A stretch of DNA of 64,000 bases from the NCBI RefSeq assembly GCF_021117275.1, contig NZ_CP088245.1, positions 409,501 to 473,500 of the forward strand, written 5' to 3'. This DNA comes from Metabacillus sp. B2-18 (GTDB taxonomy: Bacteria; Bacillota; Bacilli; Bacillales; Bacillaceae). The position numbers and the translations under genes were made by a program. Positions 266 through 15,263 of the stretch are shown in pieces; position 1 is the stretch's first letter; each line of letters opens with the position of its first letter. Below the pieces are notes generated by a model. That model ran no database searches and was not told where the DNA came from. It saw nothing but the letters and a program-made list of their open reading frames with translations.

Positions 266-1930
266 ATGATAAAGCAAAAATATAAGCTAAGTACAATCAT
301 TATTTTGTTCGTTTGTTTAGTCGTGCTTCTTTCGCTGCTCCTGACTGATTTGTTAATAAGTCATACAGTAAGCAAGACCATACGAGAAAATCAAGAAGAA
401 AAGGCAAAGATTGTCTCAAGAACAGTTGCGAAGTCTGTGATTGTAAAAAATGGACTAGAAAATAACCAACCTTATTCGAGTGAGATTCAAGATTATACTG
501 TTGACATTCAAAAAGCAGCAGATGTTATGTTTGTCGTTGTAATGGATATGAAAGCAGTAAGAAAATCACACCCTAACACTGATTTAATTGGAAAAAAATT
601 TAAAGGGGGAGATGAGGAAGCTGTTCTTAACGGTAAAGAGCATGTTTCGGTTTCAGAAGGGACGTTAGGACAATCATTAAGAGCTTTTACACCTATATAT
701 AATCATGAACAAGAACAGATAGGGGCAGTTGCTGTTGGTATTTCATTGAATAATGTGGAACAAGCATTAGAAAGAGGGCATCGTACCATCATAATTGCCT
801 CTATTATTGGTGTTTTAGTTGGGATCTTAGGTGCAATATTATTAGCTCGATATATAAAAAAGATTTTATTTGGTCTTGAACCATTTGCCATTGCTAAAAT
901 ACATGAAGAAAGAAATACGATGCTGCAATCTGTTCATGAGGGTATTATTGCGGTTGATAATGAGGCGAATATTACTCTAGTAAATAGATCGGCTTTACAC
1001 ATTTTTAAAAATACTGGACTACCAGCACAGCCTATTGGGATGAAGATAACAGAGTATTTACCATCTTCAAACTTGGATCGTGTACTTAAAACAGGAAAAG
1101 CAGAGCAAGATGTTGAGTTAACGATTAATGGGGTTTCAATATTGGTTAATCGAGCACCTCTAATAGTCAACGATCAAATTGTTGGAGCTATTTCCACCTT
1201 TAGAGATAAAACAGAGATGAATCAATTAGCTGAACAATTAACAGGGGTTCGTACCTATGCAGATGCATTACGAGCTCAATCTCATGAATTTATGAACAGA
1301 CTTCATGTTATTTTAGGTATGATTAAAATGGAAAGCTATGAAGAGCTAAGGAAGTTCATTGCTCAGGTTGTTAATCATGGTGCACATGAGGTTGGACAAG
1401 TGACAAAAAATATTAAAGATCCAGCACTAGCAGGCTTTTTACTTGGGAAGCTTAGCTTTGCAAGGGAAAATAAAGTAGAAATGATCATTGATTGTGATAC
1501 GCTTATTCCTGAACCGGTTGATCCAAGAATTACCCATGAATTAATTACGGTTATTGGCAATTTAGTAGATAATGCGATTGAAGCGATGGCTCAATATGAT
1601 AATAAAGTCTTGCAAGTCAAATTTCATTATGAAGACTCTTCTTTACAAATAAAAGTTAGGGATTCAGGTCCTGGACTTCATAAGGATCAATTTCCACATC
1701 TATTTACCAAGGGGTATTCCACAAAGGGAGATAATCGTGGGTTTGGATTATATTTAGTCAACAAAAGTATGGAACATATAGAAGGAACACTTCAAATTAA
1801 TTTAAGTATCAAAACAGGAGCAGAATTTATTGTTCAAGTTCCTTATAAAGGGGGTACCGTCAGGAAAATGCGGATTTACAACGCTAAGCCTATTTTTCTG
1901 ACGATTCCCACGTTTTTAACAACGTTATGA
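266..1930 (+). CDS. malK: DcuS/CitA/MalK-type sensor histidine kinase with transposon-altered C-terminus
   Basis: Membrane sensor kinase for a C4-dicarboxylate or malate-like ligand. It has a TM helix at about residues 11-31, an extracytoplasmic PDC-type sensor region to about 175, a second TM at about 177-197, a PAS domain at about 215-320, an H-box (SHEFMNRLHVILGM) and a HATPase domain with NLVDNAIEAM and GFGLYL. The family and the downstream malR-maeN order match B. subtilis MalK (YufL). The strong GGGAGGTG site fixes the ATG at 266. After VPYKG the frame runs into the Tn3 end at 1851, so the last six native residues (RESTSD, recovered by joining the flanks) are replaced by about 25 transposon-encoded residues. 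The kinase core is intact and may still work, but it is cut off from its regulator gene. Confidence 0.85.
   Translation: MIKQKYKLSTIIILFVCLVVLLSLLLTDLLISHTVSKTIRENQEEKAKIVSRTVAKSVIVKNGLENNQPYSSEIQDYTVDIQKAADVMFVVVMDMKAVRKSHPNTDLIGKKFKGGDEEAVLNGKEHVSVSEGTLGQSLRAFTPIYNHEQEQIGAVAVGISLNNVEQALERGHRTIIIASIIGVLVGILGAILLARYIKKILFGLEPFAIAKIHEERNTMLQSVHEGIIAVDNEANITLVNRSALHIFKNTGLPAQPIGMKITEYLPSSNLDRVLKTGKAEQDVELTINGVSILVNRAPLIVNDQIVGAISTFRDKTEMNQLAEQLTGVRTYADALRAQSHEFMNRLHVILGMIKMESYEELRKFIAQVVNHGAHEVGQVTKNIKDPALAGFLLGKLSFARENKVEMIIDCDTLIPEPVDPRITHELITVIGNLVDNAIEAMAQYDNKVLQVKFHYEDSSLQIKVRDSGPGLHKDQFPHLFTKGYSTKGDNRGFGLYLVNKSMEHIEGTLQINLSIKTGAEFIVQVPYKGGTVRKMRIYNAKPIFLTIPTFLTTL
1846..1850. repeat. Target-site duplication, left copy (TAAAG)
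   Basis: The five bases directly before the left terminal repeat are TAAAG, identical to the five bases directly after the right terminal repeat at 28469-28473. Tn3-family transposons make 5-bp duplications. Joining the flanks through one TAAAG rebuilds the kinase reading frame. Confidence 0.9.
1851..1888 (+). repeat. Tn3-type terminal inverted repeat, left end
   Basis: A 38-bp repeat beginning GGGGTACCGTCAGG and ending ACAACGCTAAG. It matches about 35 of 38 bases of the inner copy of the right-end repeat and closely resembles the repeats at 17082-17118 and 17251-17288. Confidence 0.9.
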
Positions 1931-4880
1931 AAGTTTTAGTGGTCTTAAAGAATCTAATGAGACCATTTTCTCCGAATTAAAATGGTATTCTCCTAGTAAA
2001 TTAATATGTTCCCAGCCTAAAGGTGACATATGGTGTAATAAGTCCTCATTAAAACTACCTGCCTGTTTTTGATATTCAACTGCTTTGGTCAGATGTAGAG
2101 TATTCCAGATACTGATGGCATTGATAATTATGTTTAAAGCACTGGCTCTTTGAAGCTGATGCTGTATGGTTCGTTCCCTAAGCTCTCCTTGTTTTCCGAA
2201 GAAAATAGCTCTTGCCAGTCCATTCATGGCTTCTCCTTTATTCAATCCTTTTTGTATTTTTCTTCTTAATGATTCATCCGAAATATAATTCAAAATAAAG
2301 ATCGTTTTTTCTATTCGGCCCATCTCACGTAAGGCTGTAGCCAAGCTGTTTTGTCTTGAATAAGAACCTAGTTTCCCCATAATAAGGGATGCTGAAACTT
2401 TTCCTTCCTTTATAGAATGAGCTAATCGCAAAACATCCTGATAATTTTCTTTAATGACCTTTGTATTTATTTGTCCACGTAAAATGGCTTCTAATTTTGG
2501 ATATTCACTTGCTTTATCTATTGTAAATAATTTCGAGTCTGATAAATCTCGTATTCTTGGAGCAAATTTAAATCCTAATAAATGAGTCAGCCCGAATATT
2601 TGGTCTGTGTAACCAGCAGTGTCTGTATAATGCTCTTCTATATTTAGATCCGTCTCATGGTGCAACAATCCATCCAAAACATGAATCGCATCCCTTGAAT
2701 TTGTATGAATAATCTTTGTGTAATAAGAAGAGAATTGATCACTAGTAAAACGGTAGATGGTGGTTCCTTTTCCAGTCCCGTAATGTGGGTTTGCATCTGC
2801 ATGCAGTGATGAAACACCTATCTGCATTCTCATACCATCTGACGAGGATGTTGTACCGTCGCCCCAATAGGAGTTTATGATGGAAATTTACTAATATGGC
2901 TTGGGCCTTATTCATTGCATCTTCATACAGGCGCCATTGAGATACATTGGCTAGTTGCTTATATGTAAGTCCGGGTGTGGCTTCGGCCATCTTGCTTAAG
3001 CCAATATTCATTCCCATTCCTAAAAGGGCAGCCATGATAATGATTGTTTCCTCCTTATCTGGTTTTCGAGTATTGGAAGCATGAGTGAATTGCTCATGAA
3101 ATCCTGTTATATGAGCAACATCCATAAGTAAATCAGTTAATTTTATTCTTGGTAGCATTTGATAAAGGCTTGCACTAAATTTTTTTGCTTCTTCTGGAAC
3201 ATCTTTTTCTAAGCGTGCAAGTGACAGTTTTCCTTTTTCAAGAGAAACCCCATCTAACTTGTTGGAATTGGCAGCTAACCATTTTAACCTTTCATTAAGG
3301 CTACTGGTTCTCTCTGTTATATAATCTTCGAATGATAAACTAACTGATAATCTCGTATTCCCCTTCGATTGATTCCATATATCTTCCGAAAACAAATATT
3401 CCTCAAAATCCCTATATTGTCTGCTGCCAACAATAGAAACATCTCCTGCCCGAACATGCTCCCGAAGTTCTGTTAAAACAGCCATTTCATAGTAATGACG
3501 ATTAATTGTTGTACCATCATCCTGGTATAAATGCTTTTTCCATCGTTTTGAAATAAAATCCACAGGTGAGTCATCAGGCACTTTTCGCTTTCCGGATTCG
3601 TTCATTCCTCGAATAATCTCAACAGCCTGTAAAAGTGGCTCATTTGCCTTTGTAGAATGGAATTCCAATACTCTTAATAGCGTTGGCGTATATTTTCTTA
3701 GTGAATAAAACCGTTTTTGCAGTAAGTCCAAATAATCATAGTCGGCAGGACGTGCAAGCTCCTGAGCCTCTTCTACTGAAGAGACAAAGGTATTCCATTC
3801 AATAATCGATTCTAAAACCTTAAAAACGTCTAATTTTTCCTCTCTTGCTTTAATTAATGCTTGTCCGATGTTCGTAAAGTGTATAACTTTCTCATTTAGT
3901 TTTTTACCGTTTTGTTTCTGGATTTCCTCTTGAGCCTTACGACCTTTTGATAACAAACTAAGTATTTGCCTATCATGAATTTCAAACGCATTATCTGTTA
4001 GCTCCTGAGTAAGTTGTAATAAATAGACGGTTAATATCGAATAACGTTTATTTTCTTGAAAGTCACGGAATGCATACGGCTCGTATCTTGAACCTAAGCG
4101 AGATAGCTGTAACAGACGATTGCGATGCAAATGGCTAATTTGTACCGTTTCTAATTCTATTTCTCGTATGTATTCAAGTCGTTCTATTACTTTTAGAAAT
4201 GTTTCGGGCGAAGGATGACCCGGTGGTTCCTTTAACCAACCCAATATCGTTTTATTGGATTCGGATGGATGCTGCGAAGTAATGATCTCTTCAAGCTTTT
4301 CTTTTTGTTCATTTGTAAGAGATTTACTTACCGTATTAAATAGCTTCTTTTCAGCCATTGCCCTTGCTTCCCACACCATTCTTTCAAGTGTAGTGATAGC
4401 AGGGAGTATGATTTTGTTTTTTCTTAGAAAATCTATGCATTCATGCAGTAGATGAATGGCATCACCATTTTCCAAAGCTAATTGATGAAGGCGCTTAAAT
4501 GTCATTCGATATTCACTCAGGGTAAAAGTTACAAAGTCGTATTCACTTCGAATTTCTTTCAAATGATCCCAAAGTGTATTTTCCCTTTGAGGATAATAGC
4601 TAAGCGAGGATGGACTAGCACTGATTTGTTTCGATATATATTGTATAACCGAATCTGGGATGCTTTTAATATGAGTGTATGGCCAACCGGGATACCGAAG
4701 AACAGCAAATTGAACGGCAAACCCTAAACGGTTTTCTTCCCTCCTTCGCTTATTAATTATTTCTAAATCACGTTTGGAAAAGGTGAAGTAGGTCCCCAAT
4801 ATCCATTCATCTTCAGGGATTTGCATAAAAGCCTGTCTCTGTTCCGGTGTAAGCAATTCTCTACCTCTCGCAATTTTCAT
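1925..4880 (-). pseudogene. tnpA: Tn3-family transposase, frameshifted (tnpA1)
   Basis: Transposase that would act on the repeats at 1851 and 28468. It is broken into a 712-aa 5' part (4880-2742, start MKIARGRELLTPEQRQAF) and a 302-aa 3' part in another frame (from about 2833). Family proteins are about 990 aa, so nearly the whole protein is represented. At about 2868-2872 the frame breaks within the conserved segment HHKL...YWGDGTT, which fits loss of roughly ten bases. This is next to the first catalytic Asp (GDGTT). The second Asp (in DTAGYTD) and the Glu (in SEAMNG-like GEAMNGLARAIFF) are in the 3' part. Probably inactive, unless the frameshift is a sequencing error. Confidence 0.85.
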
Positions 4881-4928
4881 TCAGTATCATCCCATTTCTG
4901 TATTTTTCAATTTATTAGCTCAATTATA

Positions 4929-4954
4929 TATCAATAGAGTGTACCCTATTGATA
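4929..4954. repeat. 9-bp dyad upstream of tnpA1
   Basis: TATCAATAG and CTATTGATA are separated by 8 bases, about 50 bp upstream of the transposase start. The position suggests an operator or a recombinase half-site pair in the transposase promoter. This is inference from position only. Confidence 0.35.
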
Positions 4955-4956
4955 AT

Positions 4957-4999
4957 AAAAAAATAGACTAATCGGTTCTTACCGTTCAGTCTATTTTTT
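4957..4999. terminator. Bidirectional terminator between GNAT gene and tnpA1
   Basis: An AAATAGACT / AGTCTATTT stem is flanked by A and T runs, with an inner CGGT/ACCG pair. It closes the minus-strand cassette at 5174-10087 before tnpA1. Confidence 0.65.
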
Positions 5000-5173
5000 A
5001 CTATCTTACTCCAGACAAGCACGCGCCCTGTTATTGAATAACATTAAAGCTTCTAATGGCTACCATTACAGTGGTCCATCACATGTAAAAAGGCACCACT
5101 CTTGTTCAGAAAGACGTCTGAATTATTTTTCACCTATTTTGATCTCAAGATCCTAAATAGGAAATATGTGTAT

Positions 5174-5701
5174 TTATTTATTCCATTCCTCTGTTTTCAA
5201 GGCAAATATATATTCGTCGCTGGTAGAACCTTTAAAAAAATCCGCATTCTTTTCAAATCCAATTTTTTTAAATCCTAGCCTTTCAACTAATTTAATTGAT
5301 TTAATGTTCCTTGTATCAATATATGCATGAAACATCTTTATTTTATAATTTGAAATTAGTATATTAATCATCTCTGTTACTGCTTGTTGTGCATATCCCT
5401 TTCCCCAGTACTTAGAAGGTAAGACATATGCTATTGAAGCTTTTAAATCTTTACTATAAATAGTTGCTTGAACCGTTCCAATATATTCCTTTAAATTTTT
5501 ATTATAGATTGCAAAATTTAACCAGATTTGCGAAAGGTGAATTGGTGCACCTTCTGCCAACCTTTCGAATTTTTCAGACAATTCACCTGAACTCTCAGGA
5601 GGATTTTCAGGGATATAGGTATATATTTTTTCATCTTTTAAAACTGAAAATAACTCCTCAGCATGATACTTGTTTAATGGTTCTAGATTCATATTAGTCA
5701 T
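5174..5701 (-). CDS. GNAT-family N-acetyltransferase (RimJ/RimL-like)
   Basis: A 175-aa protein predicted to transfer an acetyl group from acetyl-CoA to an amine. The acetyl-CoA loop is visible as YWGKGYAQQAV (Q/R-x-x-G-x-G/A type) at about residues 103-113, and the C-terminal SIKLVERLGFKKIGFEKN segment is typical of the Acetyltransf_3 (ribosomal-protein or antibiotic/amino-acid acetylating) branch. The start is supported by GGGGAG upstream. It is the last gene of the minus-strand cassette with the MFS, carbamoyltransferase and oxygenase genes, so a tailoring or self-resistance role is plausible. The substrate is unknown. Confidence 0.75.
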   Translation of the reverse strand: MTNMNLEPLNKYHAEELFSVLKDEKIYTYIPENPPESSGELSEKFERLAEGAPIHLSQIWLNFAIYNKNLKEYIGTVQATIYSKDLKASIAYVLPSKYWGKGYAQQAVTEMINILISNYKIKMFHAYIDTRNIKSIKLVERLGFKKIGFEKNADFFKGSTSDEYIFALKTEEWNK

Positions 5702-5743
5702 TTTATAACTCCCCGAAAGCCATATATTTTTTATTATAATAGT

Positions 5744-6998
5744 TTAACCATTACTATTAGATATCGAACTTTTATCTACATTGTTATTAATTTTGTTTTT
5801 ATTGAAGTAACTTTTTGTAAAGTAATATAAACCTATTAATGTAATTATTAACCCACTAATTCCAAAAAGAATTCGAACATTCTCGTTTGATTGTATTAGA
5901 CCCCCGATAAAAAGGCCAGGAATAGAAAAAATACCTATTATCATCTGGAATGATCCAAAAACACTTGCCCTACTTGATGCTTCTGTGGTTTTTTGTAGAA
6001 TTGAATTTGATAATATTGATATTTGAGCTCCAACTGTACCGGTTAGTAACCCTAAGAATAAAAATGAGAACATAGAATCTATTGAATAATGTAAACCAAT
6101 ACATATTCCATCCACAATTGTACATAAACTCAAAAGAGGTAGATAACCTAATTTATTTTGAAGATGTTTAACAATAAGACTACCTATGAATAATCCTACA
6201 GCTTCTATAACCATTAAAACGGAATAAAAGGATTCCTCCATACCTAATACTTCTGTTACAAAAACAAGATATAGTACGTTTATAATTCCACTGACACCTG
6301 AGATAACCCCTACCAGAATAGTTACTCTTAGAGCATCCTTAACATCTATCAATTTTACAAAGCCCTTTATTAAATTCCCTAAAAGATTCTTTTTATCAGT
6401 ATTTATGCTACTTTCTTCTTCATTTATGGTAGATGGTTTAGTCAAGATAGTTAAAAACGAAGCTATAAAAATACAAATAGCATAGATCAAGAAACCATAC
6501 TGCATCTAATTTAGCCACTACAAGTCCAGAAATAAGCATTCCAATGATTGTTGTTATAGACGTCCCTGATTGGAGGCGAGAGTTAGCAGTTAAAATGTAA
6601 TTTTCCTCGACTATTTCCGGTATATAACTTCCTCGACTTGGACCAGATAATATTCTAATTGAGGATACAAGGAAACTTAGAAAGTATATATAAGTAGTAA
6701 AAGGAAACAAGAACATAAATAAAGCAAAAATACCAATTAAGATATTAGAGATAGTAATTACGAGCTTCTTAGGAATCTTGTCACCTATTACTCCTCCAAA
6801 AGGTGGTAAGATGATTGAGGGAAGTAATAATACAATCATAAAAAAAGCAATAGACTTTGGATCATTATTTGATTCATTATAAACATAGACAGTTGCTGCA
6901 ATTTCAAAGAGTGAACTTCCTAATGCATTTAAACTAGTTGCTGGTAAGTAAAATGAAAAAGAGCGATTGATAAATAACTCTTTAAAAAAAGGAGACAA
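5744..6998 (-). pseudogene. MFS exporter, frameshifted
   Basis: A major facilitator transporter of about 415 aa. It reads as an N-terminal half (6998-6438, TTG start after AGGAGGG) and a C-terminal half (ending at 5744). The two halves join at about 6500: the first reads KLDAVWFLD where KLDAVYGFLIYAICIF is expected, consistent with loss of one base. Hydrophobic segments fill both halves, and the N-half has the loop GGVIGDKIPKK (the MFS G-x-x-x-D-R/K signature). It resembles drug-efflux MFS proteins (MFS_3/MefA-like). In context it would export the product of the carbamoyltransferase cassette. It is either a recent mutation or a sequence error, since the rest is well preserved. Confidence 0.75.
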
Positions 6999-7021
6999 AA
7001 TATCCCTCCTAAAATGTAATT

Positions 7022-7049
7022 AACATACACTCGTAAAGGAGTGTATGTT
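7022..7049. terminator. Hairpin between carbamoyltransferase and MFS genes
   Basis: AACATACACTC pairs perfectly with GAGTGTATGTT (11 bp, 6-base loop). The T-run is better on the plus strand. On the minus strand it could act as an attenuator or RNA-stability element between two cassette genes. Confidence 0.5.
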
Positions 7050-7053
7050 TTTA

Positions 7054-9015
7054 TTAAGTAGTAATTGTATGCTTTTCAAAAGTGAAATTTAAATAGTTTA
7101 GTTGTTCAAATGCCTCACACAATTTAAGGTGTTTTTCTAATTGAAATTCTGAATCAACTAACTCATTTAATGTCTTTTGTCCGTTATTTAAAAGGAGTGT
7201 CCTAGCTACTTCAAACTCTTCATGTTTTAAAGGAGTGATCTTTTTCCCATTTGATATTCCGAGCAATTGGTATCCTTGTGATTCCTCAGAAATAAGGGTA
7301 ATAGAAGGGCGAAAAACCGGGTACGAATTGACTTTTGATTGCCTGTCTAATTCTTTCTTTGTAATAATCCAATTTTCAATAACTAAAACATCTATATCAG
7401 TTGATAAAAAGCAATTTATAGCATCCTCTGGTGTTTCTACTATAGGTTCACCCATAACATTAAAAGACGTGTTTAGAAGAACTGGAATACTTGTTAATTC
7501 TCCAAATTTATGTAGTAACTTATGTAATCTAGGGTGTTCTTTTTCATGTAACGTTTGTAACCTAGTAGAATTATCTACATGTGTTATTGCGGGAAGTGAT
7601 TCCCTATAATCACTTTTAACATCAAAACTTAATAACATGAATGGACTTTCTCTGTTTACTTCAAAATAGGAGTCAGCACATTCCACTGGACAAACTGGTG
7701 CAAACGGACGAAAAGATTCTCTATGCTTAACTCTTTCGTTAAGTTTTGATTTCATATTCGATAACATTGGGTTGCATATTATACTTCTATGTCCAAGTGA
7801 GCGAGGGCCAAATTCAGAACCACCCTCAAACCATGCAACTATTTCACCTTTTTCTAAACGTTTAGCTACTTCATTAATTAATTGATCATTTGGAGTTCGC
7901 TCTTTATTTACAACTAAATAATTACTAAGAACATTACTTACTTCCTGCGAGGTATATTTCTTTCCTAAATAATCATGTGTTTGTTTATAATGTGCATTTT
8001 GTTTCTTTAAAAAACTATATCCATAGTAGGCACAGCCAATAGCTATACCAGCATCATTAGCAGCTGGCTGGATAAATAGTTCATTCGCATACTTACTTAA
8101 CACTTTTCCATTTGCTACACAATTAAGTGCAACTCCACCTGCATAACAAATATTTCTAGTGGTAGTTTTCTTAAATATGCTTTTAATTCTTGCCTCAAGT
8201 GCATTTTCAAGATCTCTTTGCATGATTGCTGCTAAATGTTTTTGATCTTCGTGGAACCCAGGTTTATTAAAGTTTAATTGCCAGTTATTATTGAATATAA
8301 CCTTATCTTCATTTGAAGACATGATATTTACACCCCTATGGAAATTACAATCTCCGTAAGGTGCAAGTCCCATTACCTTTCCACTTTCAAGGGGATCATC
8401 AAAGATGTAATTTGAAACAATTGCATATGCCATACCTATCCCGCCAGTGTATATCATCTCCGATGAATGGCTTGGTAAATAAAATCTATCTAACAATTTA
8501 TATGAGTTATTAGTAAATAAATAGTATGACTCTGCCTCACTCTTAAATTCTCCTTTTGGAGTAGGTCCTAGTAAATATTTCTTCATTTCCGGACCTGCCA
8601 TTACATAATCTTTTCCTTCTGGCGAAGAAGAACCCGCAGCATCAATAACCATTACTATTGATTCTGATTGCCCTGAAGGTGAAAATGCACTATAGGCATG
8701 TGCTAAGTGGTGAGATATAAAAAGATGTTTTTCTGAAAAAGGATCAAAAAGGGAAAAATCTTTTTGAAGGGGAGTGGTTAATCCCACCCCTCCATATGAC
8801 AAAGATTGAACGTTTGAAACAATTAAATCTACTTCATCAATGGAGATTCCCCTAGCATCTAGACAATATTGAATCATTCGTTCATCAGAAATTGTCCTTT
8901 CTAAATCATGTTTACGACGGGTAAGTCTTTCTTTTTGAATAGCTGCTACAACCTTGCCATCTTCTACTAAACATGCTGCAGCATCATGACTATAATTAAT
9001 TCCAAGTACAAACAT
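7054..9015 (-). CDS. NodU/CmcH/TobZ-family O-carbamoyltransferase
   Basis: A 653-aa enzyme expected to form carbamoyl-adenylate from carbamoyl phosphate and ATP and pass the carbamoyl group to a hydroxyl. Family features visible: the N-terminal start MFVLGINYSHDAAACL; the metal-binding HHLAHA at residues 102-107; VIDAAGSSSPEG; GGVALNCVANGK; the C-terminal signature EFGPRSLGHRSI followed by FRPFAPV; and LNTSFN. The length is normal for the family, which acts on Nod factors, cephamycin, tobramycin and novobiocin-type scaffolds. The ATG lies 2 bases after the oxygenase stop, so translation is probably coupled. No NRPS, PKS or glycosyltransferase is nearby, so the acceptor is unknown. It could be a hydroxyl introduced by the adjacent oxygenase. 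Confidence 0.9.
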   Translation of the reverse strand: MFVLGINYSHDAAACLVEDGKVVAAIQKERLTRRKHDLERTISDERMIQYCLDARGISIDEVDLIVSNVQSLSYGGVGLTTPLQKDFSLFDPFSEKHLFISHHLAHAYSAFSPSGQSESIVMVIDAAGSSSPEGKDYVMAGPEMKKYLLGPTPKGEFKSEAESYYLFTNNSYKLLDRFYLPSHSSEMIYTGGIGMAYAIVSNYIFDDPLESGKVMGLAPYGDCNFHRGVNIMSSNEDKVIFNNNWQLNFNKPGFHEDQKHLAAIMQRDLENALEARIKSIFKKTTTRNICYAGGVALNCVANGKVLSKYANELFIQPAANDAGIAIGCAYYGYSFLKKQNAHYKQTHDYLGKKYTSQEVSNVLSNYLVVNKERTPNDQLINEVAKRLEKGEIVAWFEGGSEFGPRSLGHRSIICNPMLSNMKSKLNERVKHRESFRPFAPVCPVECADSYFEVNRESPFMLLSFDVKSDYRESLPAITHVDNSTRLQTLHEKEHPRLHKLLHKFGELTSIPVLLNTSFNVMGEPIVETPEDAINCFLSTDIDVLVIENWIITKKELDRQSKVNSYPVFRPSITLISEESQGYQLLGISNGKKITPLKHEEFEVARTLLLNNGQKTLNELVDSEFQLEKHLKLCEAFEQLNYLNFTFEKHTITT

Positions 9016-9017
9016 GT

Positions 9018-9731
9018 TTAACCTCTTCTAAGCCCTACTGTAAGTATAGATACCTTTTCTCCTTCAACAACTGGTTCTCGTTCATGAACAGAACCACCAG
9101 CTAATAAAAGAACTAACTCACCTGGTTTCAATAAAATTCTTTTTGGTTTTCCATCATTAGAATAAACAACTAATGAGGATGGATTTTCTACATGGTCCCC
9201 CATCTCATGTGATAAACCAATAATGCAGTTAATTGAAAACACGTCTGAATCAACATGTGCGGGGATTCCATCGCCTGGTTCCTCATAATATAAATATGAG
9301 CTTATTTCATTAGGAATAACCTTATAACCAAGGGCATCGTTTACATATTGAACTAATTCATTGCTTAATGCTAGTTCCTCAGCTACTTTTCCAGCAGGAG
9401 ATAAGTAGTGCTTACCCGGTCTTACAGCAATTTTTCGTACTTCTTTAGATTCTTTTATTAAAGCATTTAGTAATTCATTAGTCATAAATGAAGGTCTTTC
9501 ATATTTTACTAGCCCTGCATCTCTAAACTGTGTCATAAGTTCCACAGCTATATTGAAAGCGTTCTCTGAAATTTCATCAGATCCCTTGTTGTTGTTTGGT
9601 GCAAGCCCACCAACAGCAAGAGATAGCAATAATTGCATATTTATTTTTTCAGCCATATCCATGCCTGTAATTAACTCATTTATATCACTTAATAATTCGT
9701 TTTTAGATTTTTGTAAGGTATCTAAACTCAT
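9018..9731 (-). CDS. 2OG-Fe(II) oxygenase-like protein
   Basis: A 237-aa protein using the ATG at 9731, placed 8 bases after AAAAAAGGAG; a longer frame from 9755 lacks a good site. The C-terminal half looks like a double-stranded beta-helix dioxygenase: the H-x-D facial-triad motif is HVDSD (His159, Asp161), the distal His is in GGSVHEREPV (His216), and a basic residue follows in ILTVGLRRG. The N-terminal 100 residues are helical and not recognised; they could bind a carrier or peptide. It lies between the small protein gene and the carbamoyltransferase. Inferred role: hydroxylating the substrate that is then carbamoylated. The family call rests on motif reading, not a search. Confidence 0.6.
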   Translation of the reverse strand: MSLDTLQKSKNELLSDINELITGMDMAEKINMQLLLSLAVGGLAPNNNKGSDEISENAFNIAVELMTQFRDAGLVKYERPSFMTNELLNALIKESKEVRKIAVRPGKHYLSPAGKVAEELALSNELVQYVNDALGYKVIPNEISSYLYYEEPGDGIPAHVDSDVFSINCIIGLSHEMGDHVENPSSLVVYSNDGKPKRILLKPGELVLLLAGGSVHEREPVVEGEKVSILTVGLRRG

Positions 9732-9753
9732 ATCTAAATCTCCTTTTTTAAAC

Positions 9754-9782
9754 AACCCATAAGAGTGTAGTTCTTATGGGTT
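9754..9782 (-). terminator. Attenuator-like hairpin after the small gene
   Basis: AACCCATAAG pairs with CTTATGGGTT (10 bp perfect, 9-base loop) between the 97-aa gene and the oxygenase gene. On the minus strand the trailing U-run is weak (GTTTAAAAAAGG). This layout would give excess transcript of the first gene, as seen for precursor-peptide genes, or would protect its 3' end. Confidence 0.55.
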
Positions 9783-9793
9783 GCTATGATCTT

Positions 9794-10087
9794 TTAGTTT
9801 GCTGGCATCTCGACAACGTTAATTAGGTCGTTAAATTTAAGCTTTAATTTTAACTGATCATGTGTTGACATCGGCTTATAGTAGCGTGCTAAATGGTTTG
9901 CCCCCTCATTATTAGCCTCTGTTTCTTGATTCTGTTTTACAGCTGTACTGATGATTCTGTTAAGTAATTCTTTTTTTTCGCCCTTAGAATTATCAGAGAG
10001 CACTTTAAGCTTTGCTTGTAACTTATCGAGACCACTTTCTAACTCTTTTGCTCTACTACCATTAATAATCATTGACAAGTTAACCAT
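9794..10087 (-). CDS. Small hydrophilic protein, first gene of the carbamoyltransferase cassette
   Basis: A 97-aa protein that I do not recognise. It has no Cys, no membrane segment and no signal peptide, and carries a charged helical N-terminal two-thirds (KELESGLDKLQAKLKVL). The C-terminal stretch ends FNDLINVVEMPAN. The frame opens at ATG 10087, but the AAAGGGGAG site lies only about 2 bases away; a TTG at 10078 has better spacing (about 9 bases). It has its own promoter and is followed by a perfect hairpin, then by oxygenase, carbamoyltransferase, exporter and acetyltransferase genes. It could be a precursor peptide (leader plus short C-terminal core), a carrier or a regulator. The precursor idea is inference. 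Confidence 0.6.
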   Translation of the reverse strand: MVNLSMIINGSRAKELESGLDKLQAKLKVLSDNSKGEKKELLNRIISTAVKQNQETEANNEGANHLARYYKPMSTHDQLKLKLKFNDLINVVEMPAN

Positions 10088-10117
10088 CTCCCCTTTGGAA
10101 ATTTTGTTACAATAATA

Positions 10118-10146
10118 TAATACTACTAATTTTTGGATATTACAAA
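10118..10146 (-). promoter_or_regulatory. Sigma-A-type promoter of the carbamoyltransferase cassette
   Basis: On the minus strand TTGTAA (10146-10141) is followed after exactly 17 bases by TATTAT (10123-10118), about 30-40 bases before the first start codon of the 97-aa gene. The match is 4/6 and 5/6 to the sigma-A consensus. Confidence 0.6.
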
Positions 10147-10840
10147 GAATTTTTCCATAATTTTATTTATTTAGTATTTTTAGTTAATGTTTGTAATGTA
10201 TATTTTTATACAGGTTCAATATTTGATGCTTATTAACAAAACTTCTCTTTAAGTAGATACTCTTATAAAATTTAAAAGTTATCTTTTTCAACAATATTTT
10301 TTAAAAATATCTTTTTATGAAGGACTAGTTTTTTTGTTCTTTGTTTTGTTATAAAGACAGATAGGGAAGAAACTCACTATAATTCTTTAAAACCTAGTAA
10401 TTTCTCATATTTTTTAAAAACATGGAAGTATTCATTTCTCCATCGATTTTAAAAAGATTTTAAAAAAGAAAGAATATCGCCTTAAAATAAATAAGCACAT
10501 TTCAAAGTATGAAATGGCCTAATGTTGGAATATCTTTATTGAAATGAATGTCCTGAGTTAACAGTTAAAGTGTAACCTTTACACTCTATATGTTATTAAG
10601 TGGACTTGTCCAATCGGACAGAACGCTGATTGAGCCATAAATAAATTTTTGTTAATCAACAGCTTCTTCTTTTTTATTGACTTTGAACTCTCTATTTGAC
10701 TCTTGCAAACTTTCTTTCTCATAGATTTTCGATCGCCAAAATAGTGCATTAAATCATTAAGTCCCTATTCAATAGTCTTTATCTCTTATGTTGAACAGAT
10801 GTTTAAAAAGTGCATTGTATCTTAAATATCATTATGAAGT
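10147..10840. other. AT-rich non-coding stretch
   Basis: About 700 bases without a convincing gene or a strong hairpin. I looked for a Tn3 terminal repeat that would pair with the one at 14073-14110 and found none, so that end of the second transposon seems to be lost or diverged. Confidence 0.4.
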
Positions 10841-10918
10841 TTAGTATAAATCACCCACGTATCTTCTTCCTACCATCTTGAAACTCTTCGGTTCATCATC
10901 TAGCGAATTTAATAGCAT
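10841..10918 (-). CDS. Possible 25-aa ORF downstream of tnpA2
   Basis: A short frame, MLLNSLDDEPKSFKMVGRRY plus five residues, starts 8 bases after a strong AAAGGAG site that lies just past the tnpA2 stop. It stops early and may be the truncated beginning of a former gene. No function can be assigned. Confidence 0.25.
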   Translation of the reverse strand: MLLNSLDDEPKSFKMVGRRYVGDLY

Positions 10919-10931
10919 TCAGGTCACTCCT

Positions 10932-13900
10932 TTACTTTATTAAAAGTATATTTTTTTCTCTTGCTACAGACACCTCAAACGGAAGTTTAGGAGGTTTACG
11001 GTTTAGATCAATGCGGTATTTTCCAAACCGATTGACATGAGCTGTAACATAGGGGCTTAAATAGGAAATCAGCTCTTCATCATAATCATTTCCGTCTTGC
11101 ATGTAGTCATGGAGAATACGAGACAAAGAGAACACATTATAAAAGATAAGACAATTGGCCACTAAGTGGTTATATTTAATAACCTTACGCTGTTTTTCCC
11201 GGTCATTTTCAGCGATAATCCCTTCACCACCAAAGAATAGCCACTTGGTAAACCCATTAAAAGCTTCACTTTTATTGGTAGCTGCTTGAATCGTTCTTCT
11301 TAGTTCCTCGTCAGCCATATATTTTAATAAAAACATCGTTCGTATTACTCTTCCAAGCTCGCGAAACGCCTGATACAACTTATTCTTTTTGCTGTATGTC
11401 CCTAGTTTATTAAGAATGGTAGAAGGAGTAATTTTACCTGACTGGATCGACATAGCAACTCTAATCATGTCTGGATAATGAGTTTCAATGAGCTCCCAAT
11501 CGATTTCCCCTGAAAAAAGTTCATCAATATGCTCGTAGATTTCTTCATTACAGGGACGGAATAATTTTAAGTCTTTCCAATTCCGTATTCTAGGCATCAG
11601 CTGAATACCTAGTAAAGAGGAAAGTCCAAAAACTGTTGTACTTTGCCCTTGAGTATCTGAATGAAGAATTTCAGGTTGAATTTCGGCTTTATCATTCATC
11701 AAAATGTCTAAAATATGTATCCCTTCCCATACGCCACAAGGAATAAAATTGCTGAATAAAGCAATATAGGTATCCGAAACATGATAATATCCAATCCCAC
11801 CATATCCACCATAACGAATATGATTTTCGGATAAAAGATTCTGCTCATATAAATCCCATTTCGTTCCGTCAGCTGAAGCTCTTTTCCCATCGCCCCAATG
11901 TTTTGGAAGATCAAATTGGTTATAGGTATTTATAATATATTGAATCGCTTTGTCTAAATTTTCAATGGTCACATGACGTTGATTAATCCAAGCTATTTGT
12001 TTTCGGTCTAAACTTCCTATTGATCGGGCAGTTTGAGTTGGTCCTAAATTACATCCATAGCAAAAGGCATTCGTTATGTATCGTTCAACTGCGTTGTCTA
12101 ATTTCGCCTCATGCCCTGAAATAGGACCAAAAAAACGAGTCCAATTTAACCAGTATTCGGTATCAGCAAGCATATCCAGTACATTAATGGGCTCTAAATT
12201 TCCAGCTATATATTCTTCAAGTTTCTTTAAACCAGGAGGGATTTTTTTCTTCTTTAACTGTCCAATCACCACTTCACCGTTTTCAATCCGCACTTGTTCA
12301 TTTCGAGGAAAGGATTGATCTGTTTGGCTCGTGATTTGTTTAAAATCTTGCTGTGTCTTTCTAACGAAATCGACTCCGGAAATAGGCAAATTCACATGCT
12401 TGCAAAAATCAGCTAAATTCTTTTCATAGTCCTCCCATGTAATGAGTTGCTTTCGATAGTCTGCATATTTTTCGCTTCCTTCTATATATAGGTCACTTGC
12501 CTTAAGCTCTAACATAATCTGCGAAAGGACACATACTTCAAAGTGTCGGCGATTGATTTCATCAGGCATTTTTTCTTTCTTCTTTTTAGGACTGATCCAA
12601 CGCCACCAGGAATCTGGTACCCAAGACAGATCTAACAAAGGAGTAATTTCCCAATCCTTTCGCCACTTTCCGTTCTTTTCGATGTGAACGACTGGTATGA
12701 ATTCCTTTTTTGTATATTGATGTGTAAGGAGAAAAGAAATCGCCTCTTCCAGTGCTTTATCTTGTGTAGTTGAACGGAGTGGAACGGATTTAAGAATTTT
12801 AAACAATGTAGCACGATGACTTTTATAAAATTGCCATAAGAATAAATAGTAGTTGTCTCCACTAAAAGCTAAATGGTTTTCGCAATCTTGTATAACCTGT
12901 GCTTCTTGTTCTTTGAGTACCTTTTGCATGGCCTGAATTCTTTCTTCAGGATTCCCTTCAGTTTGATAAGCAAGCAGTAATTCATGGAAAGTTGATATTA
13001 ACGAATCCGTGCGTTTTTGCGTCTTTTCTTTATGATCTTTTAAACGTTGACGGCCTTTTTTATGAATGCTCATCATTCTTTTAATGAGCATTTCTCCAAT
13101 ATCATCTAAAATTTTAGACAATTGCATAGATACAAAGGCAAGTGTAAGCGCATATCTTTTTTTAGATTCCATTTCTAACATACGAAAAGCGCCCAACGTT
13201 TTGGCTTCAGCTGCCATTTGTTTCACTTTGATGTAAGGAACGTCCTGAAGCAAATCGGTAGGAATTTGATGGTTTATTAACCAATTACGGCGTACAATTA
13301 AATCGTTTAGATGTGATAAAGTGGCTCTTTTCGCGTCCTCTTTTATTTCATTCCAAGGACTGTAGGTAGCGCCTTCAGGTATCTGAAAAAGTTGATCTAT
13401 GTTCTTTTTTTGTTCATCATTTAGTGCATGGTCTATCTGATGATAGATGGCACGATATGATTTATTTCGAACATCGTTTGCTGCATCTTTTAAGGTATTA
13501 TAAACAGGTAATTCGTATCGTTGTCGTATTAATTCTTCAATTGCAGCATTGACTAAGTCGGCAGGATCATCTTTGCTAAATGCTAATTTATTCATTGTAT
13601 TGGTTAAAATATGATGGGCCTCATGATCAAATGGTCGAAGCTGAAGATAATCCCGAACAAAGCGAAAATGGCGTTTAGCAGTTCTCGTTTCACTGTACGT
13701 TTTCCACTCTTCTTTGGTAGGCAAAGGCAAGTGTGCCTTTTTCGCAATATGTATAACAATCGCTTCTGGAACTTCAACAATATGTATAAAAAACCCAAGC
13801 TTCTGTACGGTTTTGGTTAAAACAAGTAATGCTAATTGTTGTAAGGTACCTTTAGACTTAGCTTCTGCCCATTCTATTTCATTTATTTTTGGTGTATATA

Positions 13901-13970
13901 CTTCTTCCAAGTCTTTCTCTGTCAGATTACTCTTAAACCTGGGGTAAATGGTATCCTGAATACTTGGCAA
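10932..13970 (-). CDS. tnpA: Tn3-family transposase, intact (tnpA2)
   Basis: A 1012-aa replicative DDE transposase, full length for the family. The N-terminal region (about 1-600) matches DUF4158 and the DNA-binding part. The catalytic domain shows WGDGKRASADGTKWD (first Asp), HSDTQGQS (second Asp) and KSEAFNGFTKWLFFGG (Glu). It diverges clearly from tnpA1 and belongs to another Tn3 branch. Its 5' end faces a GGGGTACGG-type repeat (14073-14110) that abuts merA, so this element jumped into a mer determinant. The repeat expected near its 3' end is not visible. It could still act on related ends in the element. Confidence 0.9.
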   Translation of the reverse strand: MPSIQDTIYPRFKSNLTEKDLEEVYTPKINEIEWAEAKSKGTLQQLALLVLTKTVQKLGFFIHIVEVPEAIVIHIAKKAHLPLPTKEEWKTYSETRTAKRHFRFVRDYLQLRPFDHEAHHILTNTMNKLAFSKDDPADLVNAAIEELIRQRYELPVYNTLKDAANDVRNKSYRAIYHQIDHALNDEQKKNIDQLFQIPEGATYSPWNEIKEDAKRATLSHLNDLIVRRNWLINHQIPTDLLQDVPYIKVKQMAAEAKTLGAFRMLEMESKKRYALTLAFVSMQLSKILDDIGEMLIKRMMSIHKKGRQRLKDHKEKTQKRTDSLISTFHELLLAYQTEGNPEERIQAMQKVLKEQEAQVIQDCENHLAFSGDNYYLFLWQFYKSHRATLFKILKSVPLRSTTQDKALEEAISFLLTHQYTKKEFIPVVHIEKNGKWRKDWEITPLLDLSWVPDSWWRWISPKKKKEKMPDEINRRHFEVCVLSQIMLELKASDLYIEGSEKYADYRKQLITWEDYEKNLADFCKHVNLPISGVDFVRKTQQDFKQITSQTDQSFPRNEQVRIENGEVVIGQLKKKKIPPGLKKLEEYIAGNLEPINVLDMLADTEYWLNWTRFFGPISGHEAKLDNAVERYITNAFCYGCNLGPTQTARSIGSLDRKQIAWINQRHVTIENLDKAIQYIINTYNQFDLPKHWGDGKRASADGTKWDLYEQNLLSENHIRYGGYGGIGYYHVSDTYIALFSNFIPCGVWEGIHILDILMNDKAEIQPEILHSDTQGQSTTVFGLSSLLGIQLMPRIRNWKDLKLFRPCNEEIYEHIDELFSGEIDWELIETHYPDMIRVAMSIQSGKITPSTILNKLGTYSKKNKLYQAFRELGRVIRTMFLLKYMADEELRRTIQAATNKSEAFNGFTKWLFFGGEGIIAENDREKQRKVIKYNHLVANCLIFYNVFSLSRILHDYMQDGNDYDEELISYLSPYVTAHVNRFGKYRIDLNRKPPKLPFEVSVAREKNILLIK

Positions 13971-14027
13971 TTTCTATCCCTTCTTTATCTAATAATTTCT
14001 ACAATTCTATATTTATAATAAAATAAA

Positions 14028-14048
14028 AACCTATCATTTTGATAGGTT
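14028..14048. repeat. Short palindrome upstream of tnpA2
   Basis: AACCTATCA and TGATAGGTT are separated by three T residues, about 60 bp upstream of the tnpA2 start. It may be an operator or a small hairpin; role unknown. Confidence 0.3.
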
Positions 14049-14072
14049 CGGTCGCTAATACCATATTTTCCC

Positions 14073-14110
14073 ACAATGGCCCCTCAATCTGCGAATCGTT
14101 TCCGTACCCC
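14073..14110 (-). repeat. Tn3-type terminal repeat abutting merA
   Basis: Read inward on the minus strand it starts GGGGTACGGAAACGATTCGC, a Tn3-like G-rich tip. It ends exactly where merA coding sequence resumes (14111). It differs from the 1851/28468 repeats, matching the idea that tnpA2 belongs to a separate transposon. Its partner was not found. Confidence 0.6.
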
Positions 14111-15263
14111 TAGTAAAGCAAAAAGATGAGTTAGTCAGCGAACTTCGGAATCAAAAATATGTCAATTTAATTGATGAATATGGCTTTGATTTAATTGAAG
14201 GTGAAGCAAAATTTGTTGATGAAAATACAGTTGAAGTTAATGGGAAGAAACTTTCTGCAAAGCGTTTTTTAATTGCAACGGGTGCTTCTCCTTCTTTACC
14301 GCCGATTTCAGGACTTGAAGAAGTGGATTATCTAACAAGTACAACACTACTTGAATTAAAAAAGGTGCCAAAGCGATTAACGGTTATTGGTTCGGGATAT
14401 ATCGGAATGGAACTTGGGCAATTGTTTCATAATTTAGGTTCAGAAGTAACACTTATGCAAAGAAGTGAGCGACTTTTAAAAGAATATGATCCCGAAATTT
14501 CAGAAGCCGTAGAAAAAGCGTTAATTGAACAAGGGATTAACCTTGTCAAAGGGGCAGCTTTTGAGCGTGTAGAACAAGATGGAGAGATAAAAAAGGTTCA
14601 TGTAACAGTAGATGGTAAGAAAAAAGTGGTGGAATCAGAGCAGTTACTTGTTGCAACAGGAAGAAAACCAAATACAGATGCTTTGAATTTAAGTGCCGCA
14701 GGGGTTGAAGTTGGAAAACGAAAAGAAATCCTGATAAATGACTACGCTAGGACAAGTAATGAAAAGATTTATGCAGCAGGCGATGTAACATTAGGACCTC
14801 AATTCGTTTATGTAGCAGCATCTGAAGGTGGAATTGTTGCCGATAATGCGATTGGCGGATTAAATAAAAAATTAGATTTATCCGTTGTTCCTGGCGTAAC
14901 TTTTACAAATCCTTCGATTGCAACGGTTGGTTTAACAGAAGAACAAGCAAAAGAAAAAGGCTATGAAGTAAAAAATCTGTATTGCCTTTAGATGCAGTTC
15001 CAAGAGCAATAGTAAACCGTGAAACAACAGGCGTTTTTAAGCTTGTTGCCGATGCAAAAACTTTAAAAGTACTAGGGGTTCATATCGTATCTGAAAATGC
15101 AGGAGATGTGATATATGCGGCGACATTAGCCGTTAAGTTTGGATTAACAGTCGAGAATTTAAAAGACAGCCTTGCACCATATTTAACAATGGCAGAAGGA
15201 TTAAAATTAGCTGCTCTTACCTTTGATAAAGATGTTTCGAAATTATCTTGTTGTGCAGGATGA
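14111..15263 (+). pseudogene. merA: Mercuric reductase remnant (5'-truncated and frameshifted)
   Basis: The C-terminal 60% of a MerA flavoprotein, which reduces Hg(II) with NADPH. The coding frame resumes at 14113 with [18 protein letters not shown], followed by [11 protein letters not shown], the NADPH-binding [30 protein letters not shown] and the C-terminal metal-binding SCCAG. The N-terminal region with the redox-active CxxxxC is missing, replaced by the transposon end at 14110. At about 14977 one base is missing: the frame reads [12 protein letters not shown] where [15 protein letters not shown] is expected, and continues to 15263. It resembles Bacillus mer transposon MerA. Non-functional. 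Confidence 0.9.

Follow-up and report, generated by a model that had tools for sequence, protein, structure and literature searches.

What do an oxygenase-like protein and a carbamoyltransferase, encoded next to each other in a short mobile operon, act upon? This question is raised by a five-gene cassette (positions 5174–10087) of Metabacillus sp. B2-18, located within the window analyzed here, i.e., a 64,000-nucleotide stretch of contig NZ_CP088245.1 (positions 409,501 to 473,500), to which the coordinates below refer unless a locus is named. The gene order, the enzyme families, the conserved catalytic residues, the genomic contexts of relatives and the duplication of the locus were observed directly. 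Judged from them, and by analogy with described pathways, the chance that this is a minimal cassette of new composition for a ribosomally synthesized and post-translationally modified peptide (RiPP), with a 97-aa protein as the precursor and carried as cargo of a Tn3-family transposon, seems to us about even. This reading was favored because relatives of both enzymes adjoin RiPP-type genes and because the crocagin pathway offers a precedent. The initial annotation of the locus had named the 97-aa product as one possible substrate; on the same grounds this is now the best-supported option, and we infer the modification itself. The cassette comprises the following elements:

9794..10087, minus strand, 97-aa orphan protein, candidate RiPP precursor (open reading frame, ORF)
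9018..9731, minus strand, 237-aa protein resembling 2-oxoglutarate (2OG)-Fe(II) oxygenases (PHROG 3531, alignments with relatives)
7054..9015, minus strand, 653-aa NodU/TobZ-type carbamoyltransferase (PF02543, PF16861)
7054..7350, minus strand, C-terminal extra domain of the carbamoyltransferase (aa 556–653), similar to a RiPP recognition element (RRE) or a GdmN-type auxiliary domain
5744..6998, minus strand, major facilitator superfamily (MFS) exporter gene, most likely split by a frameshift (186-aa and 253-aa ORFs)
5174..5701, minus strand, 175-aa acetyltransferase of the GNAT family (PF13302, E 3.5e-20, over the cut-off)
9751..9785, minus strand, hairpin of 14 pairs (one G-U), starting 8 bases past the 97-aa gene
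7022..7049, minus strand, hairpin between the carbamoyltransferase and MFS genes (z −4.59, equaled by 1 of 200 shuffles; listed by the terminator scan)
10117..10145, minus strand, sigma-A-like promoter candidate (9 of 12 consensus bases)
4957..4999, minus strand, intrinsic terminator (fold of the stretch 4945–5005)

The oxygenase gene probably starts at the ATG at 9731, which lies behind AAGGAG and gives a protein of 237 aa, in which the proposed catalytic triad is numbered H159/D161/H216, in agreement with the initial annotation. No relevant match was found in Pfam or NCBIfam, and the sole family match was PHROG 3531 (E 2.8e-4). This family is labeled "ferrochelatase", apparently in error, since Pfam identifies a 2OG-Fe oxygenase (PF13640, E 7.3e-17) in the second half of its cyanophage member (L118:1327-2415), which carries the same annotation. 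The first half of the phage protein aligns with the Metabacillus oxygenase through the HxD motif and the distal histidine (pairwise E 3e-9). Its own 2OG match is weak (PF13532, E 0.0022; none at 0.001), and a tandem oxygenase is possible rather than certain. The tblastn search against plasmids gave zero matches at E 1e-5 and four records at E ≤ 10, i.e., Glutamicibacter (3e-4), two Streptomyces (0.2) and Monoglobus (0.3), the last of which was rejected since it covers residues 70–131, outside the triad. A four-row alignment of the oxygenase and three distant plasmid relatives has 16 invariant columns, which include H159, D161, H216 and R218, and we take R218 to be the 2OG-binding arginine that follows the distal histidine. 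The triad thus holds in the sequence alignments with both the plasmid relatives and the cyanophage protein. Two of the relatives, L131 (E 0.02) and L132 (E 0.015), score below the cut-off of PF13640. Homologs were detected in the source genome only, among 397 genomes of the order and 398 of the phylum, as well as with the four-row profile among 299 genomes of the phylum; none were found in genome contigs or viral contigs by searches that detect close relatives only.

Gene neighborhoods were viewed in five of the six plasmid records with oxygenase relatives (NBC_00853 was left out). On the Streptomyces cadmiisoli plasmid, the relative lies near a YcaO gene (TIGR00702, E 1.7e-50), HlyD and annotated NHLP exporters, and a protein similar to the NHLP leader (TIGR03793, E 0.0058, below the cut-off). 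On the Glutamicibacter plasmid, the oxygenase is accompanied by a 40-aa ORF, a protein similar to aKG-HExxH peptide hydroxylases (TIGR04267, E 0.0035), an S-adenosylmethionine (SAM)-dependent methyltransferase and an MFS gene. On the Streptomyces plasmids NBC_01006, NBC_01244 and NBC_01207, a TIGR04267-like gene (E 3.3e-5, 2.6e-5 and 3.8e-5, respectively) sits immediately upstream of the oxygenase gene, and in the first two of them it is preceded by small ORFs. A gene of this type therefore adjoins the oxygenase in four of the five records, in all four scoring below the 40-bit cut-off. In three Streptomyces plasmid loci (L132:5212-7435, L133:3939-6447 and L134:3620-5453) the aKG-HExxH-like gene directly precedes a tetratricopeptide repeat-type gene with a C-terminal oxygenase of this family, the first two loci also having small ORFs close by, and, from their sequences, these loci are possible RiPP clusters.

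The carbamoyltransferase was assigned with confidence (PF02543, E 2.7e-31; PF16861, E 5e-69; Carbam_trans_N and Carbam_trans_C, both over the cut-off), and its solved relatives include 7xb6, NovN, GdmN and TobZ. Residues H102, H106, D125 and D321 of the HxxxH/D/D metal site, presumably equivalent to the metal-site residues of TobZ, are invariant in the alignment. Homologs are sparse, as they occur (own genome included) in 3 of 80 genomes of the family (E 1e-30) and 7 of 398 of the class (E 1e-50). Among plasmid matches, the first place is taken, at 40% identity (range 37–41%), by a Piscinibacter carbamoyltransferase with a fused YcaO domain, the neighbors of which are genes for a multinuclear non-heme iron-dependent oxidative enzyme (MNIO), TfuA, DUF6445, GNAT and an ATP-binding cassette (ABC) exporter. 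In a 59-row tree of sequences longer than 450 aa (GdmN, NovN, StdF and CgnI being absent), this fusion and the Metabacillus enzyme are sisters with support of 99/96; the sampling of the tree may be biased, as the Piscinibacter sequence was part of the query used for the genome scan.

The genome and viral scans with the carbamoyltransferase indicated 52 and 6 loci, respectively. Within loci L015–L084, BLASTP searches (E 0.01, frames ≥40 aa) found homologs of the oxygenase and of the 97-aa protein only in L031 of the source genome itself. The neighbor genes viewed in ten of the carbamoyltransferase loci encode, e.g., glycosyltransferases (L036 and L042), a methyltransferase and a 2OG oxygenase (L065), radical SAM/SPASM and LuxR-type proteins (L033) and a condensation domain (L016). 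Another pairing of both activities was seen in Methylomonas fluvii (L065:7980-10383), where the carbamoyltransferase stands beside an opposite-strand 2OG-FeII_Oxy_3 protein.

Neighbors of this kind (in L036, L042, L065, L033 and L016) speak for the main rival explanation, which we find possible but rather doubtful, namely that the enzymes tailor or inactivate a host metabolite, a sugar or an incoming compound, that the C-terminal tail of the carbamoyltransferase is a dimerization domain of the GdmN/NovN type, that the MFS and GNAT proteins provide efflux and resistance, and that the 97-aa protein is an accessory one. The cassette itself is without a scaffold-making gene (as judged by the ORF list and family scan), the tree sister of the carbamoyltransferase is fused to YcaO, and the oxygenase relatives adjoin RiPP-type genes, all of which fit such an activity on small molecules poorly.

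In the tail, residues 541–653 have no relevant Pfam match. The AlphaFold2 model of the tail displays the order strand-strand-strand-helix-helix-helix, which defines RREs; in the Foldseek search of this model there were zero matches with E <0.001. The hhalign comparison with 19 PqqD-family proteins (those of 27 matches that lie in frames ≤161 aa) gave P 1e-3. Fusions of RREs to PF02543 carbamoyltransferases have been reported (PMC12710340). The element order (at low confidence), the P value and the reported fusions support the RiPP reading. As the alignment runs into the GdmN C-terminal domain, described as a dimerization domain (PMC9633730), the tail is referred to here as RRE-like; it may be an RRE, but it resembles the GdmN dimerization domain as well.

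The 97-aa protein is encoded by the first gene of the operon. Its ATG is preceded by AAGGGGAG (a ribosome-binding site), the GC contents of its codon positions (0.44/0.27/0.35) are gene-like, and the two other frames of the same strand are closed. No family above chance and no solved relative were found in Pfam, NCBIfam, PHROG and structure-sequence searches. Plasmids, viral contigs, phages and 239 genomes of the order yielded no homologs (genome contigs were not scanned). The last of these searches gave nine matches at E ≤ 0.1, in the source genome and eight others, and the foreign eight were discarded as chance (E 0.006–0.095 per genome; seven of them inside frames of 195–964 aa). The protein is lysine-rich, and some of the lysines occur in the sequence LKLKLKF near its C-terminus.

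Its gene is followed by a hairpin (−19.3 kcal/mol, z −5.98, equaled by 0 of 200 shuffles in RNA folding), and the strength of this structure supports the RiPP reading. Hairpins between the precursor gene and the enzyme genes are common in RiPP operons. Only a short T run comes after it and the terminator scan does not list it; an attenuator or a processing element is possible.

The length of the protein would also suit a role as a carrier or scaffold. In that case, residues at its end would be modified and then freed as a small amino-acid-like product, and not as a long mature peptide. Pearlin-like logic is the model for this arrangement. Very small ribosomal products do exist, e.g., crocagin, with a core of three residues. 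We regard a carrier function as unlikely, since none of the cassette ORFs match the peptide-extending (LanB-like) family and direct evidence for it is lacking.

The minus-strand ORF places claimed in the initial annotation (for the 97-aa protein, oxygenase, carbamoyltransferase, MFS region and GNAT) were all confirmed, and the ORF list and fold test place the five genes downstream of a plausible promoter and ahead of a strong terminator. The single sigma-A promoter postulated for the operon exists as an element (TTGTAA-17-TATTAT at 10145–10117), yet it did not reach above-chance status. As promoter-type matches are no commoner in this region (22) than in shuffles (28.1 expected), it is considered only plausible. 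The closing terminator stands firmer, since the stretch 4945–5005 folds well beyond its shuffles (z −8.40, equaled by 0 of 200), though the site at 4957–4999 is missing from the list of the simple terminator scan (2 sites found, 2.0 expected). The oxygenase stop codon is placed 2 bases ahead of the carbamoyltransferase ATG, and this short gap makes the proposed translational coupling plausible. The Rfam scan of 4800–14500 gave zero matches.

The exporter had been annotated as an intact gene. Its family and location were correct, but the region consists of two overlapping ORFs (6438–6998 and 5744–6505), both matching MFS_1 over the cut-off. They cover consecutive halves of TIGR00900 (model positions 7–159 and 159–359 of 364, both below the cut-off of the model), so they most likely represent one gene broken by a frameshift. 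The frameshift is present in both copies of the duplicated unit described below, as these are identical.

The location of the cassette inside a transposon proved to be better founded than originally stated:

4939..14110, no strand assigned, duplicated unit of 9,172 bp (100% identical copy on contig C2, spanning its linearization point)
10932..13970, minus strand, Tn3-family transposase inside the duplicated unit (1012-aa ORF; NF033527, PF01526)

The genome consists of two contigs, and the second copy of the unit lies on the 330-kb contig C2; since both copies are identical, the duplication must be very recent. The transposase is well supported (NF033527, 683 bits with a cut-off of 500; PF01526, E 6.6e-148), and its DNA shows 86% identity to a Niallia plasmid across 36% of the query. 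Mobile elements of the source genome match Niallia and Geobacillus plasmids. The right end of the unit starts with GGGGTACGG, and Tn3 ends often start in this way. The left end sits in the middle of a palindrome, with TTATCAATAGGGTACAC on one side of the boundary and nCTATTGATA on the other. The whole palindrome (4925–4955), TTATCAATAGGGTACAC(n)CTATTGATA, is found at the exact edge of the duplicated unit. The 155 bases at 4800–4954 share 97–98% identity with Tn3-type elements on plasmids of Bacillus and Enterococcus and on the vanA plasmid pLW043, in which the match takes in the beginning of a Tn3 transposase gene together with the preceding region, adjoining a recombinase gene. Because of this match, the left boundary is probably a Tn3-type resolution site, as judged by its sequence.

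Two further observations concern genes flanking the unit. To its left (1925–4880), a second Tn3-family transposase is divided between ORFs of 712 and 302 aa, which correspond to successive stretches of the Tn3 DDE domain, so it is probably broken. To its right (14323–15263), adjacent ORFs match the successive Pyr_redox_2 and Pyr_redox_dim parts of a pyridine nucleotide-disulfide oxidoreductase, by eye resembling mercuric reductase, and its gene looks split for this reason.

A search of 21 genomes of the genus with the cassette DNA gave the source genome and one other, the latter with a 94-bp match (75%) at the left end of the unit. None of the other genomes searched yielded the cassette, and this rarity, the split MFS gene and the very recent origin of the identical pair would all be expected if the genes were decaying cargo without a present function, hitchhiking on active transposition. 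This seems quite improbable to us, as the four other genes are open and equipped with ribosome-binding-site-like sequences.

Several points weigh against the RiPP reading. The 97-aa protein is an orphan, and a single sequence does not suffice to define a core motif; the cassette has no peptidase gene (ORF list and family scan), its exporter gene is broken, and it was not found in another genome. There is no confirmed RRE in the cassette. The hhalign probability of the tail is 21% in the local mode (over 30 columns), 3% in the global one and 1% with a single sequence, and the four-row profile of tailed carbamoyltransferases reaches GdmN position 628, within the C-terminal dimerization domain; solved relatives with such an auxiliary domain (GdmN and NovN) carbamoylate small molecules. 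A similar tail occurs on a carbamoyltransferase of Streptomyces that adjoins a condensation domain, and the L042 enzyme adjoins a glycosyltransferase. Both structure models are poor (pLDDT 46.9 for the tail and 35.8 for the oxygenase, the latter built from a single sequence without an alignment). The direct links of the oxygenase are weak as well (Glutamicibacter 3e-4, Streptomyces 0.2), the Streptomyces proteins being tied to it via the Glutamicibacter one, which detects the S. cadmiisoli protein (E 3e-26) and four further ones from Streptomyces (E 5e-7 to 7e-5); moreover, a transposase gene separates the S. cadmiisoli YcaO from the oxygenase relative. In the carbamoyltransferase tree, the branches are long (0.69 and 1.21) and the node above the sister pair is weak (88/42), and a Chloroflexi enzyme (L033), which is without such a tail, shows 41% identity, slightly above Piscinibacter.

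Should the cassette nevertheless make a RiPP, we infer the substrate, the modified residue, the order of steps and the roles of the hairpin, tail, MFS and GNAT as follows. The 97-aa precursor would be made in excess owing to the hairpin between its gene and the enzyme genes, and the carbamoyltransferase would perhaps grip it through the C-terminal RRE-like domain. A carbamoyl group derived from carbamoyl phosphate and ATP would be transferred to a side chain, either to N-epsilon of lysine (giving homocitrulline) or to a hydroxyl. The name O-carbamoyltransferase used in the initial annotation is not established, lysine N-carbamoylation being equally possible. The 2OG-Fe oxygenase would hydroxylate the same peptide, thus creating the carbamoyl acceptor or acting on an already carbamoylated residue. 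The product would be released by an unlinked protease and exported by the MFS protein (in the source strain probably not, because the gene is split), and GNAT would acetylate the product or protect the host. Such a small, possibly self-sufficient set moving between two contigs may serve as a simple system in which peptides are carbamoylated and hydroxylated, and the oxygenase family, which has no Pfam model, is a sequence handle for finding further clusters of this kind.

The initial annotation knew of no described system with exactly this set; that nothing similar has been described would be too strong a claim, as two pathways are close in kind (PMC10070186 and PMC13174530). In the crocagin (cgn) pathway of Chondromyces crocatus, a ribosomal precursor is hydroxylated by the Fe/2-oxoglutarate dioxygenase CgnC, the carbamoyltransferase CgnI acts later, at an unsettled point, and transport genes are predicted (PMC10070186). 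The likeness lies in the functions described; the crocagin precursor has 21 aa (versus 97 aa for the candidate here) and is accompanied by the peptide-binding CgnB and CgnE, the hydrolase CgnD and the methyltransferase CgnL, which have no counterparts in the cassette. Neither a CgnB/CgnE-type gene nor a 21-aa precursor was identified by the ORF list and family scan, which for this purpose covered the cassette only.

The std pathway of Streptomyces thermodiastaticus (PMC13174530, a 2026 preprint) shares with the cassette a precursor (a candidate one here), a NodU-like carbamoyltransferase, a hydroxylating iron oxidative enzyme and an MFS permease. It differs in using an MNIO with a partner protein and YcaO-TfuA, in the fusion of its carbamoyltransferase to a peptidase S8/S53 domain, and in the core motif SNKEWQE, which the 97-aa protein lacks. 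The same ORF list and family scan, likewise confined to the cassette, revealed no SNKEWQE, YcaO-TfuA or MNIO, and the motif was not found in L083 either. In std, the carbamoyltransferase forms homocitrulline from lysine, and two hydroxylations of the homocitrulline follow; by this analogy, the order originally proposed for the cassette (hydroxylation followed by carbamoylation) is a guess. The preprint calls its carbamoyltransferase only the second one tied to RiPP biosynthesis.

The Piscinibacter gummiphilus plasmid cluster (NZ_CP136338.1, L015) resembles the cassette in its sister carbamoyltransferase, an extra domain past the enzyme core and a nearby GNAT gene, and differs in the YcaO fusion, MNIO, TfuA, DUF6445, ABC exporters and a 57-aa peptide; its GNAT is no close relative. 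By eye, this peptide ends with SNKARQKPW and has SNK in common with the std motif, and the cluster (L015:5044-13120) is, by its sequence, a candidate relative of the std pathway. GdmN and NovN, in turn, combine the catalytic domains with an auxiliary domain of about 100 aa at the C-terminus, as in the Metabacillus enzyme, whereas their substrates are ansamycins and novobiocin precursors, not peptides (PMC9633730).

Among the literature matches listed, no description of this gene set was recognized from titles and the beginnings of abstracts. We tentatively propose, as a possibility short of probable, that in a stand-alone pathway borne by a transposon the std MNIO is replaced by a Pfam-invisible 2OG-Fe oxygenase, which joins an RRE-tailed carbamoyltransferase on a 97-aa precursor; this would make a new RiPP class defined solely by two tailoring enzymes, whose product would contain a hydroxy-homocitrulline or an O-carbamoyl amino acid residue. 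The finding is of specialist interest: compared with crocagin and std, the kind of system is known, and the gene set itself is unusual.

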